DNA of 64,000 nucleotides from Promicromonospora sukumoe (GTDB lineage Bacteria > Actinomycetota > Actinomycetes > Actinomycetales > Cellulomonadaceae). The translations under genes and the position numbers were made by a program. Within the stretch, counting starts at the first letter, position 1, and each line of letters starts with the position of its first letter. Below the pieces are notes generated by a model. The model had not been told where the DNA came from and did not search any database. It saw only the letters and a program-made list of their open reading frames with translations. Below, piece by piece: positions 13,213-19,377 of this stretch. Location: NCBI RefSeq assembly GCF_014137995.1, contig NZ_JACGWV010000001.1, forward strand, positions 3,286,001 through 3,350,000, in the 5' to 3' direction.

Positions 13213-16200
13213 CTACTGCCCGGTGAACACGAACTGCGAACCCGGCTCCTTCTCGACGTCCCCCTCACCGGAGTTGGTGACGGTCACGTTCGACAGGATC
13301 GCGTTGCCACGAGCGCCGCCCATCGCGAGGATGCCGGACCCGTTGTTCGACCTGTCGATCCGCACGTTGGTGATGCGGACGTCGCGCATGTTGCCGCCGC
13401 CGTTCTTGAACTGGATGCCGTCGTACGTGGAGTCGACGATGTCCGTGTCGCGGATGGTGACCCCGGTGATGTCGTGGGTCTGCGGGAAGATCGTGATCGC
13501 CCCGAACTCCTGGTCCTCGTTCCAGAACGCCCCGCCCGTGCGGTACAGGCCGTTGTTGGCGATGAGCGTCGTCCCCGAGAACGGCAGGGGGTCGTGGTCG
13601 GTCGCCAGCATGATGCCGGGGTAGTTCATGGTGTCGTAGACCAGGTTGTTCTCGATGGAGTTGTCGTAGCCGCCGTAGATCGCGATGCCGTTGGCGCGCC
13701 ACGGGAGCTGGACGGTGTTGTTGCGGAACGCGTTGTCGTGGCCGATGTCGACGTTGCGGTCCTTGACGTACGGGTTGGCCCAGACGGCGAGCGCGTCGTC
13801 GCCCGTGTTGCGGAACGACGAGTTGAAGACGAGCGAGTTGCGCGTGCCGTTGCTGAAGTTGATGCCGTCCGCGTAGGTGTTGCGGATGCGCATGCCGGAG
13901 AACTCCAGGCCGTCGCCGGGGCCCCACAGCTCGGGGATGTTGGTGTAGTCGCGCCCCACCCACACGCCGACGTTCGCGTGCTCGATCCACACGTTGGTGA
14001 TCTTGGTGTTCTGCCCGAACCGGCCGTTCAGGCCGACGCCGCCCTCCTCCTGGCCGTTGTTGCCGCGGATGTCGCCGGAGCCGAAGATCGCGATGTCGGA
14101 GATCTGGACGTTGTCGTCGATGTCGAACCCGAAGTTGCCCTCGTGCGGGTGGTTGATGACGCCCGGGGCGAGGTGCGGCTTGATGAGGCTGTAGAGCTGC
14201 GAGTGCCACATGCCCGCGCCGCGGATCGTGACGTCGCTGATGCCCACCTGGTTGTGCGTGCCGCGGTTGAGCGGGTCGTCGGTGAGGATCTTCTTCTCCT
14301 GGCGCCACTGGCCGGCCGGGATCCACACGCAGTCGATCTCGCCCTCCTGGTTGGCGGTGACGGCGGCCTGGATGGCGGCCGTGTCCTCCAGCCCGTCGTT
14401 CGGGATCGCGCCGTACTCGGTGATCGACGTGCACTGCGCCGGCTTGGACGTGGGCGGCGCGACCTGCTCGAGCTCGACCAGGTCGATGATGTAGAACGCG
14501 GCATCGTCGCCGGCGTCGCGCTGCAGCTTGAACACCGTGCCCGCCGGGAAGGACCGGTTCAGCAGGGCGTGCGACTCGTCGAAGAGGCGCCGGGCGTCGC
14601 CGCCCGGGGTGTTGACGAGGCCCTCGGGCTGGTCGGTGGTGCCGTACAGCCACGAGTGCTTGGACGAGAGGGTCAGCTTCTGCACGAACTGGCCGTCCGC
14701 GTAGAGGCTGATCGTCTTCTCCTGTCCCCCGCCGCCCGCGGCGTCGGGGATCGAGTTGCGCACCACGATCGAGTTGGTCGGGTTGGTCGACGTGAACTGC
14801 ACGTACTGGCCGGTGCTGTTCAGCCGCACCGACTCGCGGCCCGACGACTCGGTCGCGAAGTTGGTGTGCCCGAACGTGCGCAGCGGGTCGGTCTGGAGCA
14901 GCGTGCCCGTGTGCTGCCCGTCCTCGGCCTCGTAGGTGGTGTACGGCACGGCGGCGCCGCGGCCCACGGTCACCGCGAGCGTGCCGGTGTTGTTGTCCTC
15001 GTTCGTCTCGTCGACGACGTCGGTCGCGTCGGCCGTGGCCGTGACCGTGACGCCGCCATTGGTCGCCGTCCACGTCGCGGACGGCGTGACGGTGACGGTG
15101 CCGCCCGCGGGAACGGCCGGCGTCGTGCCGTTCAGGGTGGTCGAACCCGCCACCACGCGGGTGACGGAGCCGGCCGGGACCGCCTGGTTGCCGCGGTTGC
15201 GCACCTGGACGGAGAAGGAGACGGCCGCGCCGACGGCGGGGCTGGCCGGGTTGGAGGTGACCGAGACGACCTCCAGGTCGGGCCCGGGCGCCTCGCCGAC
15301 GACGAGCTTCGCCGTGGCCGTGAACCCGTTGTCGGTCTCGTCCTGCTCGGCCACCGTGTTGCCGGGGTCGACGACGGCGCCGACCGTGTACTCACCGGCG
15401 GGCTTCGTACCGGCAGCGACCTGCACCTGGGCGGTCGCGCCGGGCTGGAGCGCGGCGACGTTCGCCGAGCCCGCCGTGCTGCCGCCGAGCTTCCCGTCCA
15501 GCGTCGTGGCCGCCGAGGCCCGGTCGCCCGTGTTCCGCACGGTCGCCGTGAGCGTCAGCGGTGTGGTCGCGGTGGGCGACGCCGGGGACGCCGTCACGGC
15601 CGTGACCGTGAGGTTCGGGTTCGGCGCCGGGGCGCCGTAGACCCCGAGCTCGGCGACCTGGCCGTTGCCCGCGCCCGTGTTGGCGGTGAACCGCAGCCGG
15701 ACGTCGGTGACGGTGCCGCTCACGGGGATGTCGACGAGGTTGCCGCTCGACGGCGCGAACGCGTACGCGGCGGACGCCTTGATCTCCTGCCAGGCGGCCG
15801 TGCCGGAGCGGCCCCAGACGGAGAAGGTCTGCGTGCGCTGGCCCCATGCGCCGTCGGGGTTGACGCGCACCCGCACGCTGCTGACCTGCGTGGGCGCGGC
15901 CAGCGAGACGTCGAGCGTGGACGGGTACTGCCCGCCGGCGCCCTCCCAGTAGGTGTTCGTCTGCCCGTCCACGGCGTTCGCGGCGACGTACGTCCACTCG
16001 GTCGACGACGCGGCGGCCGGCCGGTTCAGGGCGTAGTTGGTGCCGGTCGGGTCGGTGGGATCGGTCGGGTCCGGCGGGTCGGTCGGGTCGGGATCGCCCG
16101 TGGGCGTGCCCCAGACCTGCAGCTCGGAGACCTGGCCGTTGCCCGCGCCGGTGTTGGAGCTGAACGCGAGGCGGACCTCGTCGGCCTCCGCGTCCACCGG

Positions 16201-16614
16201 GATCTCGACCTTGTTGCCGCTCGCCGGGTCGAAGGCGTACGCCGCCGAGGCCTTCAGCGTCCGGTACGACGACTCGCCCTCGGAGCGGCCGAGCACGCTG
16301 AACGTCTGGGTGCGCGGCGACCACGCGGCGGGCGGGGGCAGCGTGACGACGACGCGCTCGACGTCGGCCTCCGCACCCAGGTCGACCGTGAGGTGCGCCG
16401 GGTACTGCCCGCCCGCACCCTCCCAGTAGGACCCGGTGTTCCCGTCGTTGGCGTTGCCCGCGACGTAGTTCTGCGTCACGGACGACGCCGTGATCGGCTT
16501 GCCGAGCGCGAGGTTGGTGGCGTCCGCGGCGTGCGCGACGACGGCCAGGCCGAGCGGCGCGACGAGCGCCAGCGCGGCGCCCGTCACGACCGTGTGCTTC
16601 CAGGGGATTCTCAT
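13213..16614 (-). CDS. Secreted multidomain beta-helix glycosidase, GH87 alpha-1,3-glucanase/mycodextranase-like
   Basis: 1133 residues with a signal peptide (MRIPWKHTVVTGAAL, cleavage near HAADA). Then come two discoidin/F5-8C-like domains (about 30-185 and 215-345) joined by a PDPTDP linker, two CARDB domains (about 350-450 and 455-560), a galactose-binding CBM6/35-like domain (from YEAEDGQHTG, about 570-715), and a right-handed beta-helix of pectate-lyase-3 type (from TSITEYGAIPNDG, about 730 to the end). The helix carries TYADGINFSNG and FRNTGDDALAVWA, whose Asp-Asp pair near residue 938 resembles the catalytic aspartates of GH87. The architecture matches bacterial mycodextranases, though other beta-helix families remain possible. 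Likely acts on fungal-wall or biofilm alpha-glucan. Confidence 0.8.
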   Translation of the reverse strand: MRIPWKHTVVTGAALALVAPLGLAVVAHAADATNLALGKPITASSVTQNYVAGNANDGNTGSYWEGAGGQYPAHLTVDLGAEADVERVVVTLPPPAAWSPRTQTFSVLGRSEGESSYRTLKASAAYAFDPASGNKVEIPVDAEADEVRLAFSSNTGAGNGQVSELQVWGTPTGDPDPTDPPDPTDPTDPTGTNYALNRPAAASSTEWTYVAANAVDGQTNTYWEGAGGQYPSTLDVSLAAPTQVSSVRVRVNPDGAWGQRTQTFSVWGRSGTAAWQEIKASAAYAFAPSSGNLVDIPVSGTVTDVRLRFTANTGAGNGQVAELGVYGAPAPNPNLTVTAVTASPASPTATTPLTLTATVRNTGDRASAATTLDGKLGGSTAGSANVAALQPGATAQVQVAAGTKPAGEYTVGAVVDPGNTVAEQDETDNGFTATAKLVVGEAPGPDLEVVSVTSNPASPAVGAAVSFSVQVRNRGNQAVPAGSVTRVVAGSTTLNGTTPAVPAGGTVTVTPSATWTATNGGVTVTATADATDVVDETNEDNNTGTLAVTVGRGAAVPYTTYEAEDGQHTGTLLQTDPLRTFGHTNFATESSGRESVRLNSTGQYVQFTSTNPTNSIVVRNSIPDAAGGGGQEKTISLYADGQFVQKLTLSSKHSWLYGTTDQPEGLVNTPGGDARRLFDESHALLNRSFPAGTVFKLQRDAGDDAAFYIIDLVELEQVAPPTSKPAQCTSITEYGAIPNDGLEDTAAIQAAVTANQEGEIDCVWIPAGQWRQEKKILTDDPLNRGTHNQVGISDVTIRGAGMWHSQLYSLIKPHLAPGVINHPHEGNFGFDIDDNVQISDIAIFGSGDIRGNNGQEEGGVGLNGRFGQNTKITNVWIEHANVGVWVGRDYTNIPELWGPGDGLEFSGMRIRNTYADGINFSNGTRNSLVFNSSFRNTGDDALAVWANPYVKDRNVDIGHDNAFRNNTVQLPWRANGIAIYGGYDNSIENNLVYDTMNYPGIMLATDHDPLPFSGTTLIANNGLYRTGGAFWNEDQEFGAITIFPQTHDITGVTIRDTDIVDSTYDGIQFKNGGGNMRDVRITNVRIDRSNNGSGILAMGGARGNAILSNVTVTNSGEGDVEKEPGSQFVFTGQ

Positions 16615-16962
16615 GAACGTCCTCGTTCTCCCGCCGGGGGCGGGCTCGGCCACCCGCGGGCATCGTCGCCCGACGACGGCGCGACCGGCTGGAGCTGGTG
16701 CGTCGACGTCCTGGGTGGATCGGGTCGGCGCCACCGAGGCAGCCCGCTGGAGGGCTGCGTGCCGGGGGCGAGAGTGCAGAGTTGCAGTACGTGCACTGCT
16801 TTGTGCTCGTTGTCTGTCAAATTCTTGCAGTCTTGCGGTTGGGATATTACGAGGGCGAAACCTGGGGCGTCAAGGGTCCGGGGGCGTCCCGGAGCGCGCC
16901 GGGGCGTCGTCGGCAAATCACGTCGCCCCGATGGACGCCGTCCGCTACGGTCATCCCCGCGA
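16615..16962. other. 348-bp intergenic region between the glucanase and the tRNA-like RNAs
   Basis: No gene. The part at 16795-16860 is much richer in A/T than its surroundings and contains TTCTTG, a 17-nt gap and TATTAC at 16845-16850, a possible plus-strand promoter. On the minus strand a TTGACA (16820-16815) faces the glucanase without a convincing -10. The stretch 16790-16805 is an imperfect 16-bp palindrome. Confidence 0.4.
16946..16951 (+). promoter_or_regulatory. -10 box (TACGGT) for the tRNA-like RNAs
   Basis: TACGGT ends 11 nt before the 5' base of the first cloverleaf, so a transcript would begin only a few bases ahead of it, as for tRNA genes. The -35 region is weak. Confidence 0.4.
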
Positions 16963-17033
16963 CGGCGTGTAGCTCAGGGAAGAGCACCCGGCTTGGACCG
17001 GGAGGGCGCGGGTTCGTCACCCGCCACGCCGGC
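16963..17033 (+). ncRNA. tRNA-like RNA 1 (cloverleaf, UGG in a 6-nt anticodon loop)
   Basis: Folds as a complete cloverleaf. The 7-bp acceptor pairs 16963-16969 with 17025-17031, and U-A occupy positions 8-9. A 4-bp D stem (GCUC/GAGC) has a 6-nt AGGGAA loop. A 5-bp anticodon stem (CCCGG/CCGGG) closes a 6-nt loop CUUGGA, followed by a 5-nt variable region and a 5-bp T stem with a 7-nt loop TTCGTCA. If the loop U is U33, the anticodon reads UGG (Pro). The loop is one base short, the D loop is short, A58 is replaced and no CCA is encoded, so it is unlikely to be an ordinary decoding tRNA. Every helix differs from RNA 2 by one compensatory pair. Confidence 0.8.
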
Positions 17034-17036
17034 CGA

Positions 17037-17106
17037 CGACGTGTAGTTCAGGGAAGAACACCGGGCTGATCCCGGAGGGCGCAGGTTCGGAGCCTGCCAC
17101 GTCGGC
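17037..17106 (+). ncRNA. tRNA-like RNA 2 (cloverleaf, GAU in a 5-nt anticodon loop) abutting the next start codon
   Basis: Same architecture as RNA 1: acceptor 17037-17043 with 17098-17104, U8-A9, D stem GUUC/GAAC with the same AGGGAA loop, anticodon stem CCGGG/CCCGG closing a 5-nt loop CUGAU, variable AGGGC, and T stem GCAGG/CCUGC with loop TTCGGAG. A GAU (Ile) triplet follows the presumed U33, but the loop lacks two bases. The acceptor helix ends at 17104 and only G and C separate it from the ATG at 17107. A spacer of a few bases separates the two RNAs, so both RNAs and the gene are probably co-transcribed. Confidence 0.8.
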
Positions 17107-19296
17107 ATGTCCTACGAGGAGCAGCAGCTGTTCGCTGCCGTGCAGACCGCCGTCGGCCACCCGGAAGCCGCCACGCGGGAACGCGCGCACCGGCGCGCCC
17201 AGGCCTGGGTGCAGCACCTGGCCGGGGTGCTGGCCGGCTCGATCACCACGGGTACCCGCGTACCGGTGCGCGGCCTGCCCGCCTGGGTCACGCTCGACGT
17301 GCTGCACGGCGGCTTCGCCTCCGGCAGCGCCGCCGCGGGCGGCACGTTGGCCGACGACGAGCGCGACCTCGCGCGCGAGGTCGGCGTGCCGCTCACGCGT
17401 GCCGGGCTCAACTCCTGGTTCCTGACCGACGAGGGTCGCGCGCGCCTCGAGGCGATGCTCGACGACGGACGCTACGACGTCGTGCACCCGGAAAACGCAG
17501 CGCTGCTCGTGGTCGCATGGCTGGTCCGGGCGGGCGACACCCCGGCGGCGGTCTCCCTGCTGGAAGAGGTGGGCCCGTTCCTGGACCGGATCCGCTTCTA
17601 CCCGGTCGCGACGGAGCAGTCCGAGGCGCCGGCCGGTCAGGTCTTCCGGCGGTCGGAGGCGACCACGCACGAGGTGCTGGCCTCGCGCGCACCGAACCCT
17701 CGCGTGGAGGCGCAGCGCGAGGCGCTGACGGTGTGGGCGCCGTTCGCGGACGAGCTCCTGGCGCTGTGGTGGCCCCTGGCCGACGGCGGGACGGCGCTGC
17801 CTGACCGCTCCGCGCTCGCCGACGCCGCCGTCCGGTACCGCGCACTGGCCGCGACCCACACTCGCACCACGGCGCACACCAGCAGCAAGACCAACCTCGG
17901 CGTCCTGGTGGCGGCGACGCTCCGGGCCGAGGCCGACGACGTCCTCCCCGACGGCGAACGTTCGCGGGTCGCCCACGCGGTACGCAGCATGGCCGCCAAG
18001 CGTGGCGCGCCCGGCTCGGCCGACCTCGCACGGGCTCGTGACCTGCGGCGGGACGCCGTGCGGGCGCCGTCGTACGCGGCCGTGGCGCACGTGGTCGCCG
18101 AACGTCTCGACGACGAGGCCACGCGCCGCGGCGTGGTCGACCCGGACGCCGTCCTCGTTCCGGTCGCCGCCGGGGAGGCGACCGAGGCGGTACCCGCGGG
18201 CGCGGCCGTCCCCTCGTCCGCGGTGCGGATCGTCGGGCTGGCGGCGCAGGCCACGGTCGAGGAGCTGCACGAGCGCGGCGTCGTGCCGTCGGCCGAGGTC
18301 CTGGCCGAGCTCGCCCCGCAGCTCGTCGGGGCGCAGCACGCCGCGACCTACCCGGACCCGGACCTCGGGCTGCTGATGGCACGGACCTACCGCGCGTTCC
18401 GTCGCCGGCGGTCGCTGCTGCTGACCGACCTCAGCGCCCAGGTGAAGCTCGCCGAGCTGCCCTGGGTGGTCGCCGTCGCCCCCTACCGGACCGTCGACGA
18501 CGCGGCGCGCGACGCCGCCGCGGCCGCCCTGCACCAGATCGGCGGCCTGTACCTGGAGTGGTTCGGCGGCACGCCGCTGCCCAACCCGCTCCTGGTCGAG
18601 CTCGAAGCCCTCGCGGGCCAGGCCGGACTCGACGTCCCCCTGGTGCCGGAGCTGGCCGCCGACATCTTCCAGGACGCGTTCTCCGGGCGGTTCCCGACCG
18701 CCGCCGCGCTGGTGGCGGCGCACGCCGGCCCCGCGTACCTCACGTACTACGGGCTCGGGAACGACCTCGACGACCTCGCGCGGCACGGCTACGACAAGAA
18801 GGTCTTCGCGAAGATCTGCCGGCGCCGGGCGGCCGACGCCGGGAGCGGCGACTCCTGGTCGGTCACGCGCAACGGCATGGTGATCGAGCAGGCCCAGCTC
18901 CTGACGAGCCACAACCTGGCGTCGCTGGCCGCCCTGGGCGTGCCCGCGGACGCGGAGGCGACGGCGCGGGTGGCGTTCGACGAGGTGCTGCGCCTGGTGC
19001 GGTCCGCCTCCCGTCCGGGGGCGGACCGGTACCTCGCCATGAGCGACGCCCGCGCCGCGGGCCTCGCGTGGCGGCACGTCGTGTGGTTCACCGCGCTGCT
19101 CCCCGAGCAGGCGGCCCGTGCACTGGTCCACGACCTGAAGACCCTGACCGGTCACGAGTCGCCGCAGCTCATGGCAGCACTATCCGACCTGGCCGCCGCC
19201 TGCGCCGGAACCGCGCCGAGCCGGGCACTGCTCGGCTGGTCGAACGGTCCGCACCCGCTCCTCGTTGCGGCGTCGGGCGGGCGCTCGGCCCGGTAG
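17107..19296 (+). CDS. 729-residue protein of unknown family behind two tRNA-like RNAs
   Basis: No family recognised. The protein is predicted largely helical and soluble, with no signal peptide, membrane segment or nucleotide-binding loop. Regions that look conserved rather than low-complexity are FRRRRSLLLTDLSAQVKLAE (about 430-450), a Tyr-rich stretch TYYGLGNDLDDLARHGYDKK (about 546-565), and SWSVTRNGMVIEQAQLLTSH (about 580-600). Basic patches (KKVFAKICRRRA) could contact RNA. The ATG lies 2 nt after the second cloverleaf, with no ribosome site; release of the RNA by 3' processing would leave a leaderless message. GAGGAG just inside the coding region could serve a later start. The tight linkage suggests that the protein binds, processes or is controlled by the tRNA-like RNAs. 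That is inference. Confidence 0.75.
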   Translation: MSYEEQQLFAAVQTAVGHPEAATRERAHRRAQAWVQHLAGVLAGSITTGTRVPVRGLPAWVTLDVLHGGFASGSAAAGGTLADDERDLAREVGVPLTRAGLNSWFLTDEGRARLEAMLDDGRYDVVHPENAALLVVAWLVRAGDTPAAVSLLEEVGPFLDRIRFYPVATEQSEAPAGQVFRRSEATTHEVLASRAPNPRVEAQREALTVWAPFADELLALWWPLADGGTALPDRSALADAAVRYRALAATHTRTTAHTSSKTNLGVLVAATLRAEADDVLPDGERSRVAHAVRSMAAKRGAPGSADLARARDLRRDAVRAPSYAAVAHVVAERLDDEATRRGVVDPDAVLVPVAAGEATEAVPAGAAVPSSAVRIVGLAAQATVEELHERGVVPSAEVLAELAPQLVGAQHAATYPDPDLGLLMARTYRAFRRRRSLLLTDLSAQVKLAELPWVVAVAPYRTVDDAARDAAAAALHQIGGLYLEWFGGTPLPNPLLVELEALAGQAGLDVPLVPELAADIFQDAFSGRFPTAAALVAAHAGPAYLTYYGLGNDLDDLARHGYDKKVFAKICRRRAADAGSGDSWSVTRNGMVIEQAQLLTSHNLASLAALGVPADAEATARVAFDEVLRLVRSASRPGADRYLAMSDARAAGLAWRHVVWFTALLPEQAARALVHDLKTLTGHESPQLMAALSDLAAACAGTAPSRALLGWSNGPHPLLVAASGGRSAR

Positions 19297-19377
19297 CCCG
19301 CGGGCCGACGAGGACGCTGCAAAAGATCCCCCGCTCCCGCGGTGGTGCGCCAGGCGACACAGGCGGACCGTGGAGAG

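Follow-up and report, generated by a model that had tools for sequence, protein, structure and literature searches.

Why should two RNAs that fold like transfer RNAs stand in tandem directly before a gene whose product belongs to no recognised family? The question is raised by a locus of Promicromonospora sukumoe (GCF_014137995.1, contig NZ_JACGWV010000001.1, positions 3,286,001-3,350,000 of the forward strand); this whole stretch of 64,000 nt is called the window here, and positions below follow its numbering. We use TLS (tRNA-like structure) for a cloverleaf upstream of the orphan protein gene. Across actinobacteria, tRNA-shaped RNAs occur in one to three copies and usually end at the start codon of the orphan protein, which suggests an undescribed RNA-protein module with a tRNA mimic inside an mRNA. 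The module is real, conserved and, within reach of our searches, undescribed, as no description of a TLS paired with such a protein was found in the open-licence PMC literature, judged by titles and the starts of abstracts. Since gene finders call the RNAs tRNA genes and the protein is named hypothetical, a pair conserved in actinobacteria, and present on some plasmids, is easily missed.

The two RNAs and the orphan protein of the window

An earlier, sequence-only reading of this DNA had proposed two full cloverleaves in tandem, and ARAGORN (16963-17034 and 17037-17106), the Rfam tRNA family RF00005 (16963-17032 and 17037-17105, with 53.9 and 52.5 bits where gathering requires 29) and our own reading of the letters agree in placing them there (Table 1). 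Both copies have a 7-bp acceptor stem, U8-A9, a 4-bp D stem, a 5-bp anticodon stem, a 5-nt variable region (AGGGC) and a 5-bp/7-nt T arm opening with TTC, and they differ by one compensatory pair in each of the four helices (G-C/A-U, C-G/U-A, C-G/G-C and G-C/A-U), exactly as had been described. The anticodon loops of 6 and 5 nt were likewise borne out, as was the ending of the second RNA 2 nt before the start codon, its acceptor stem stopping at 17104 and the ATG beginning at 17107.

Table 1. Features of the module, in window coordinates
Feature	Position	Strand	Description	Basis
Whole module	16880..19319	+	promoter-like box, two TLS, reading frame and about 24 nt past the stop	comparison with congeners G660 and G659
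-10-like box	16946..16951	+	TACGGT, 17 nt before TLS 1; no clear -35; putative promoter	
TLS 1	16963..17033	+	cloverleaf, 6-nt anticodon loop CTTGGA, 3' GC	ARAGORN, Rfam, cloverleaf scan, folding
TLS 2	17037..17106	+	cloverleaf, 5-nt anticodon loop CTGAT, 3' GC directly before ATG	ARAGORN, Rfam, cloverleaf scan, folding
Orphan protein	17107..19296	+	729 aa, all-helical	reading frame, family searches, homologues, AlphaFold2

Folded singly, the copies adopt the cloverleaf at -37.1 and -30.8 kcal/mol (z -2.5 and -1.9), while the 150-nt tandem piece is less clear-cut than the single copies, with an energy that is not unusual (z -1.1). In the predicted tandem fold (16963-17112), the spacer and the 5' end of TLS 2 pair with the 3' end of TLS 2 in a register shifted by 3 nt, and this shifted acceptor register may be a switch. 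The T loops of the window, TTCGTCA and TTCGGAG, keep TTC and lack A58. Compared with functional tRNAs, the two RNAs reach the score of RF00005 and have neither a 7-nt anticodon loop nor a canonical T loop with A58. No other Rfam family, yjdF and T-box included, reached its gathering score in the window or at 17 related loci. When the host genome was scanned with a family model that includes both copies, these scored 85.4 and 80.4 bits and the remaining 27 matches 66 bits or less, the 20 of them that were checked being ordinary tRNA genes.

The protein had been described as a 729-residue product of no recognised family, and indeed no family of Pfam, NCBIfam or PADLOC matched it; 24 members of the protein group gave no relevant Pfam match and no TROVE match at E 1 or better, nuclease and toxin families did not match the protein, and solved structures offered no convincing fold match. 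Homologues number at least 558 proteins at E 0.001 or better (7994 candidates scored), and the genera among the matches listed include Promicromonospora, Antribacter, Myceligenerans, Oerskovia, Streptomyces, Kitasatospora, Dactylosporangium, Micromonospora and Actinomadura. The AlphaFold2 model is confident and all-helical (mean pLDDT 87.2, pTM 0.79), and the partner is probably an RNA-binding helical protein. Residues 46-53, 63-75 and 436-444 have low model confidence and yet hold several invariant residues, which makes them candidate segments that may become ordered on binding.

Seven Streptomyces loci (L136-L142) encode short paralogues of 488-625 aa, with an N terminus shorter by very roughly 45 to 190 residues. 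All seven keep a TLS, with an in-frame ATG 1 nt past C74, which leaves the TLS and the protein core, without its N-terminal part, as the constant pair. Their anticodon stems (CCGAC/GTCGG, CCGAA/TTCGG or CCGGC/GCCGG) were not noticed in the other TLS listed.

Linkage of RNA and protein, and selection on the fold

If the arrangement in the window were an accident, homologues of the protein should often lack the RNA. With our own cloverleaf scanner, a same-strand upstream TLS was found at all 73 loci with an intact homologue, a set that takes in plasmids, the short paralogues and one genome from beyond the class, so that the expectation of the sequence-only reading that homologues always carry the RNA held throughout, and no intact homologue without it was seen among these loci. 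In the first locus set at least one TLS was present at 36 of 36 loci, six of them on plasmids of Streptomyces, Embleya and Curtobacterium; in the second set, from the genus of G350, judged to be Streptomyces, 41 loci were fetched and 36 of the 36 intact ones had a TLS, L142 included, whose TLS turned up closer to the gene, and with genome G913 contributing two loci (L110 and L149); and L206, in a genome from another class of the phylum, has two upstream TLS. Ten gene fragments were dropped before the count of 73, which also leaves out G870, the second match of G805 and duplicates (L060, the same as L001; L007 and L009, the same as L063; and shorter loci of the same places). At L207, a weak protein match, no TLS was found. 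In 70.7 kb of control DNA the scanner made one match, the TLS of L062 itself.

Independently of the scanner, the Rfam tRNA model reached its gathering score where a TLS was expected at 14 of 17 loci (missing L015, L021 and L024), and ARAGORN made a call in 21 of 34 upstream pieces and none in 13, some of the pieces being fragments. Four of the ten gene fragments keep a TLS (L068, L069, L145 and L148); none was found upstream of L002, L008, L071, L144, L146 or L147, and at the L008 fragment a tRNA lies on the downstream side.

The search was also run from the RNA side. A GG-type T-arm pattern, which covers one type of T arm and does not occur in 9 of the 27 protein-bearing genomes, matched 30 times in 394 genomes of the class; 19 matches in 18 genomes were TLS, and all 18 genomes with this cloverleaf hold the protein (the copy in G554 being broken), while the other 11 matches showed no cloverleaf, judged by eye. 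The reversed pattern, used as a control, gave 34 matches in our own count, so the pattern alone is unspecific and the cloverleaf context gives the specificity. Distances between proteins correlate with distances between TLS bodies (Mantel r 0.64, 0 of 2000 permutations). This comparison of sequences shows the TLS and the protein to be inherited together; the linkage and the correlation would also be expected from shared descent without contact.

The covariation predicted for an alignment of these RNAs proved strong, with no sign of the absence that would have spoken against it. Among 45 TLS, standard pairs fill 99.7% of the pair cells, a percentage biased upwards because the scanner demanded helices, and 10 of the 21 pairs have changed on both sides. 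The covariation score was reached by 0 of 500 shuffles, and pairing falls to about 40% when the partners are slid by one column; further pair types, one of five covariation measures, were reached by 10 of 500 shuffles. Of 84 distinct TLS, among them the inner copies of tandems, 77 end in a 3' GC. Judged by these substitutions, the TLS fold is shown to be under selection.

Mobility and layout of the module

Homology between the window and congener G660 ends at 16879 and resumes at 19320, and for G659 the limits are 16902 and 19322; in both congeners 89-96 nt without match replace the module. The alignments show what appears to be an insertion, with loss in the congeners as the alternative. The protein or a piece of it was found in 27 of 394 genomes of the class, in 43 of 295 in one genus and in 5 of 396 phylum-wide, where one match was weak, and in none of 12 other genomes of the host genus; six records place the module on plasmids. 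Putative promoter, TLS and reading frame are what is inherited as one unit.

In two other genomes of the genus, G656 and G661 (loci L180 and L181), the same intergenic site holds other DNA, about 1.27 kb and 0.85 kb, and the site may be a hotspot for accessory genes. The adjoining gene (13213-16734, minus strand) encodes a large secreted-looking protein with a repeated N-terminal sequence, of which 11 of 13 genomes of the genus, the host's own included, have a close copy. In G913 the same TLS occurs at 0.59 Mb (L110) and 10.95 Mb (L149), near both ends of the 11.5-Mb chromosome, as expected for the terminal inverted repeats of a linear chromosome. Gene fragments lie in several Streptomyces genomes (L144-L148), with a remaining TLS in L145 and L148, and the module seems to decay often.

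An operon partner was rejected, as every neighbour family was confined to at most 2 of 13 genera among 242 proteins near 30 loci (rough ORF calling). A phage origin was rejected as well: no homologue was found in 50,697 phage records or viral contigs, and one Streptomyces-type TLS pattern gave no match there.

The leader was compared over 75 loci, namely 72 of the 73 (without L206) plus L068, L145 and L148. A TANNNT motif starts at -26 to -12 before the first TLS in 61 of them, with -16 the commonest start, whereas a control window contained it in 3 of 75; if it is a -10 box, transcription would start a few nucleotides before the TLS. An in-frame start codon follows C74 after 0-2 nt, again at 61 of the 75 (after 0 nt in the window), and the remaining 14 have wider spacing. 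The TLS is thus shown to fill nearly all of the stretch from the putative promoter box to the start codon in most loci. At L055, L057, L077, L078 and L206 a Shine-Dalgarno-like purine-rich stretch precedes the start, by eye, so leaderless translation cannot be the sole purpose of the TLS; together with the longer spacers, these stretches indicate that the TLS is conserved whatever the mode of translation.

Decoding, proposed excision and rival roles

The anticodon loops had been judged too short for normal decoding, which stands for this locus and fails for the family, in which the loop has 7 nt in 76 of 84 distinct TLS and 5-6 nt in 8. Family-wide, the case against decoding comes instead from the non-canonical T loop, of GGC type instead of TTC in 72 of 84, and from one RNA body common to 20 anticodon triplets, a sharing that, on sequence grounds, speaks against aminoacylation and decoding. 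The enzymes of tRNA usually need T54, T55 and A58, and most TLS T loops are without them. All 76 seven-nucleotide loops have C32-U33 and none has A34, and positions 34-37 carry an entropy of 1.4-1.8 bits. In 46 pairs of loci with proteins 10-20% apart, the loop (positions 34-38) differs by 32%, or 0.32 per site, and the TLS body by 4%, or 0.04; loops, too, grow more distant as proteins do (Mantel r 0.30). The anticodon loop is either drifting freely behind the U-turn or under diversifying selection.

The reading that we favour, tentatively and at somewhat less than an even chance, is of an obligate two-part module in which the TLS is excised from the leader, leaving a leaderless mRNA, and is bound by its all-helical partner protein. 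Transcription would start about 5 nt before the TLS, and enzymes of tRNA ends (RNase P, RNase Z or equivalents) would recognise and excise it, releasing a small free tRNA-like RNA and a leaderless mRNA whose new 5' end would coincide with the AUG or lie 1-3 nt away from it. The protein would bind the TLS, freed or still attached, as its RNA partner; its synthesis would thereby be tied to free TLS or tRNA, and the variable anticodon triplet, behind C32-U33, would be the part presented outwards. Excision with protein binding is favoured because the layout resembles punctuation by tRNAs, because leaderless mRNAs are prevalent in an actinobacterium (PMC3848588), and because grafted tRNAs boost translation. 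We count against it the wider spacing in 14 of 75 loci, T loops that mostly lack T54, T55 and A58, and a protein with no known RNA-binding fold.

In mitochondria, tRNAs border leaderless reading frames, a tRNA punctuation of mRNAs that Ojala reportedly set out in 1981, and the excised leader would be its bacterial counterpart. The likeness lies in a tRNA fold directly before a reading frame, the TLS ending near the start in 61 of 75 loci, whereas the module is bacterial, concerns a single gene, has a tRNA mimic in place of a decoding tRNA and undergoes processing that is putative. Another parallel is Rsr (Ro60) with its Y RNA YrlA. Ro60 has the structure of a helical-repeat RNA-binding protein. 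The tRNA-like RNA is encoded beside Rsr (PMC7790460); the module protein, in contrast, has no TROVE match and no recurrent neighbour, and the TLS is a stand-alone cloverleaf abutting the start codon, unlike a Y RNA with a separate tRNA-like domain.

Should the TLS be excised, bacteria would own a tRNA punctuation and a new route to leaderless mRNA; should the protein read the TLS, it would be a reader of tRNA shape without a convincing match among solved folds. A fuller version, which we consider unlikely, is a new bacterial RNA-protein system in which a tRNA mimic with a fast-evolving triplet is excised to yield a leaderless message and serves as the RNA subunit or bait of its partner, reading out tRNA damage or competition. 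The sequence-only reading had inferred an RNA-protein system, perhaps in stress sensing or defence; the linkage at 73 of 73 loci and the strong covariation sustain the first part, and the second finds neither a conserved neighbour nor a PADLOC match.

Could the TLS instead act purely in cis, as an uncut translation enhancer or an operator for its own protein, with no free RNA partner? We regard this as doubtful. Its place immediately ahead of the start codon in 61 of 75 loci fits such a role. PMC9142559 describes a 2- to 6.3-fold gain in translation in vitro from tRNAs grafted into mRNA leaders, and a tRNA-like fold of the yjdF riboswitch; in both, as in the module, a tRNA-shaped element sits in the 5' leader of a bacterial message. 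The grafts sat upstream of a Shine-Dalgarno sequence, whereas none lies between TLS and AUG here; the window RNAs have no yjdF match at the Rfam gathering score, and the module is sometimes tandem and has one obligate partner gene. A leader acting in cis would need neither tandem copies nor fast-changing triplets behind C32-U33.

Less likely still is an RNA-gated effector or guard, in which the TLS would restrain the protein or bait anticodon nucleases, cleavage of the loop then freeing the protein. In type III toxin-antitoxin systems (ToxIN and kin), RNA units that form pseudoknots stand upstream of a protein gene, sometimes in tandem, and one to three RNA units ahead of a large protein recall them. 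The patchy occurrence (27 of 394 genomes), the six plasmid records, the decayed copies and a loop that changes at 0.32 per site against 0.04 for the body, with C32-U33 invariant and A34 absent, are compatible with this role. The module differs from type III systems in having cloverleaf units, not pseudoknots, no match to a toxin family and usually no room for a ribosome-binding site; no nuclease family matches and no neighbour recurs, and the variability may be mere drift, since loop distance tracks protein distance. In PMC7790460, YrlA itself was left uncut.

That these are ordinary or pseudo tRNA genes, or attachment-site duplicates, lying upstream by chance is very improbable: Rfam and ARAGORN call both RNAs tRNA, and there are divergent members with canonical T loops and 7-nt loops, but the linkage to the protein, the body shared by 20 triplets and the GGC-type T loop all speak against it, and an ATG follows as closely after only 2 of 20 host tRNAs, one of them meeting a stop at once.

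The anticodon loops of the short paralogues are unlike the variable loops of the main group, with CTGCACA in five of the seven and CTGCAAA in one; that of L141 is the 6-nt CCCACG, which is without U33.
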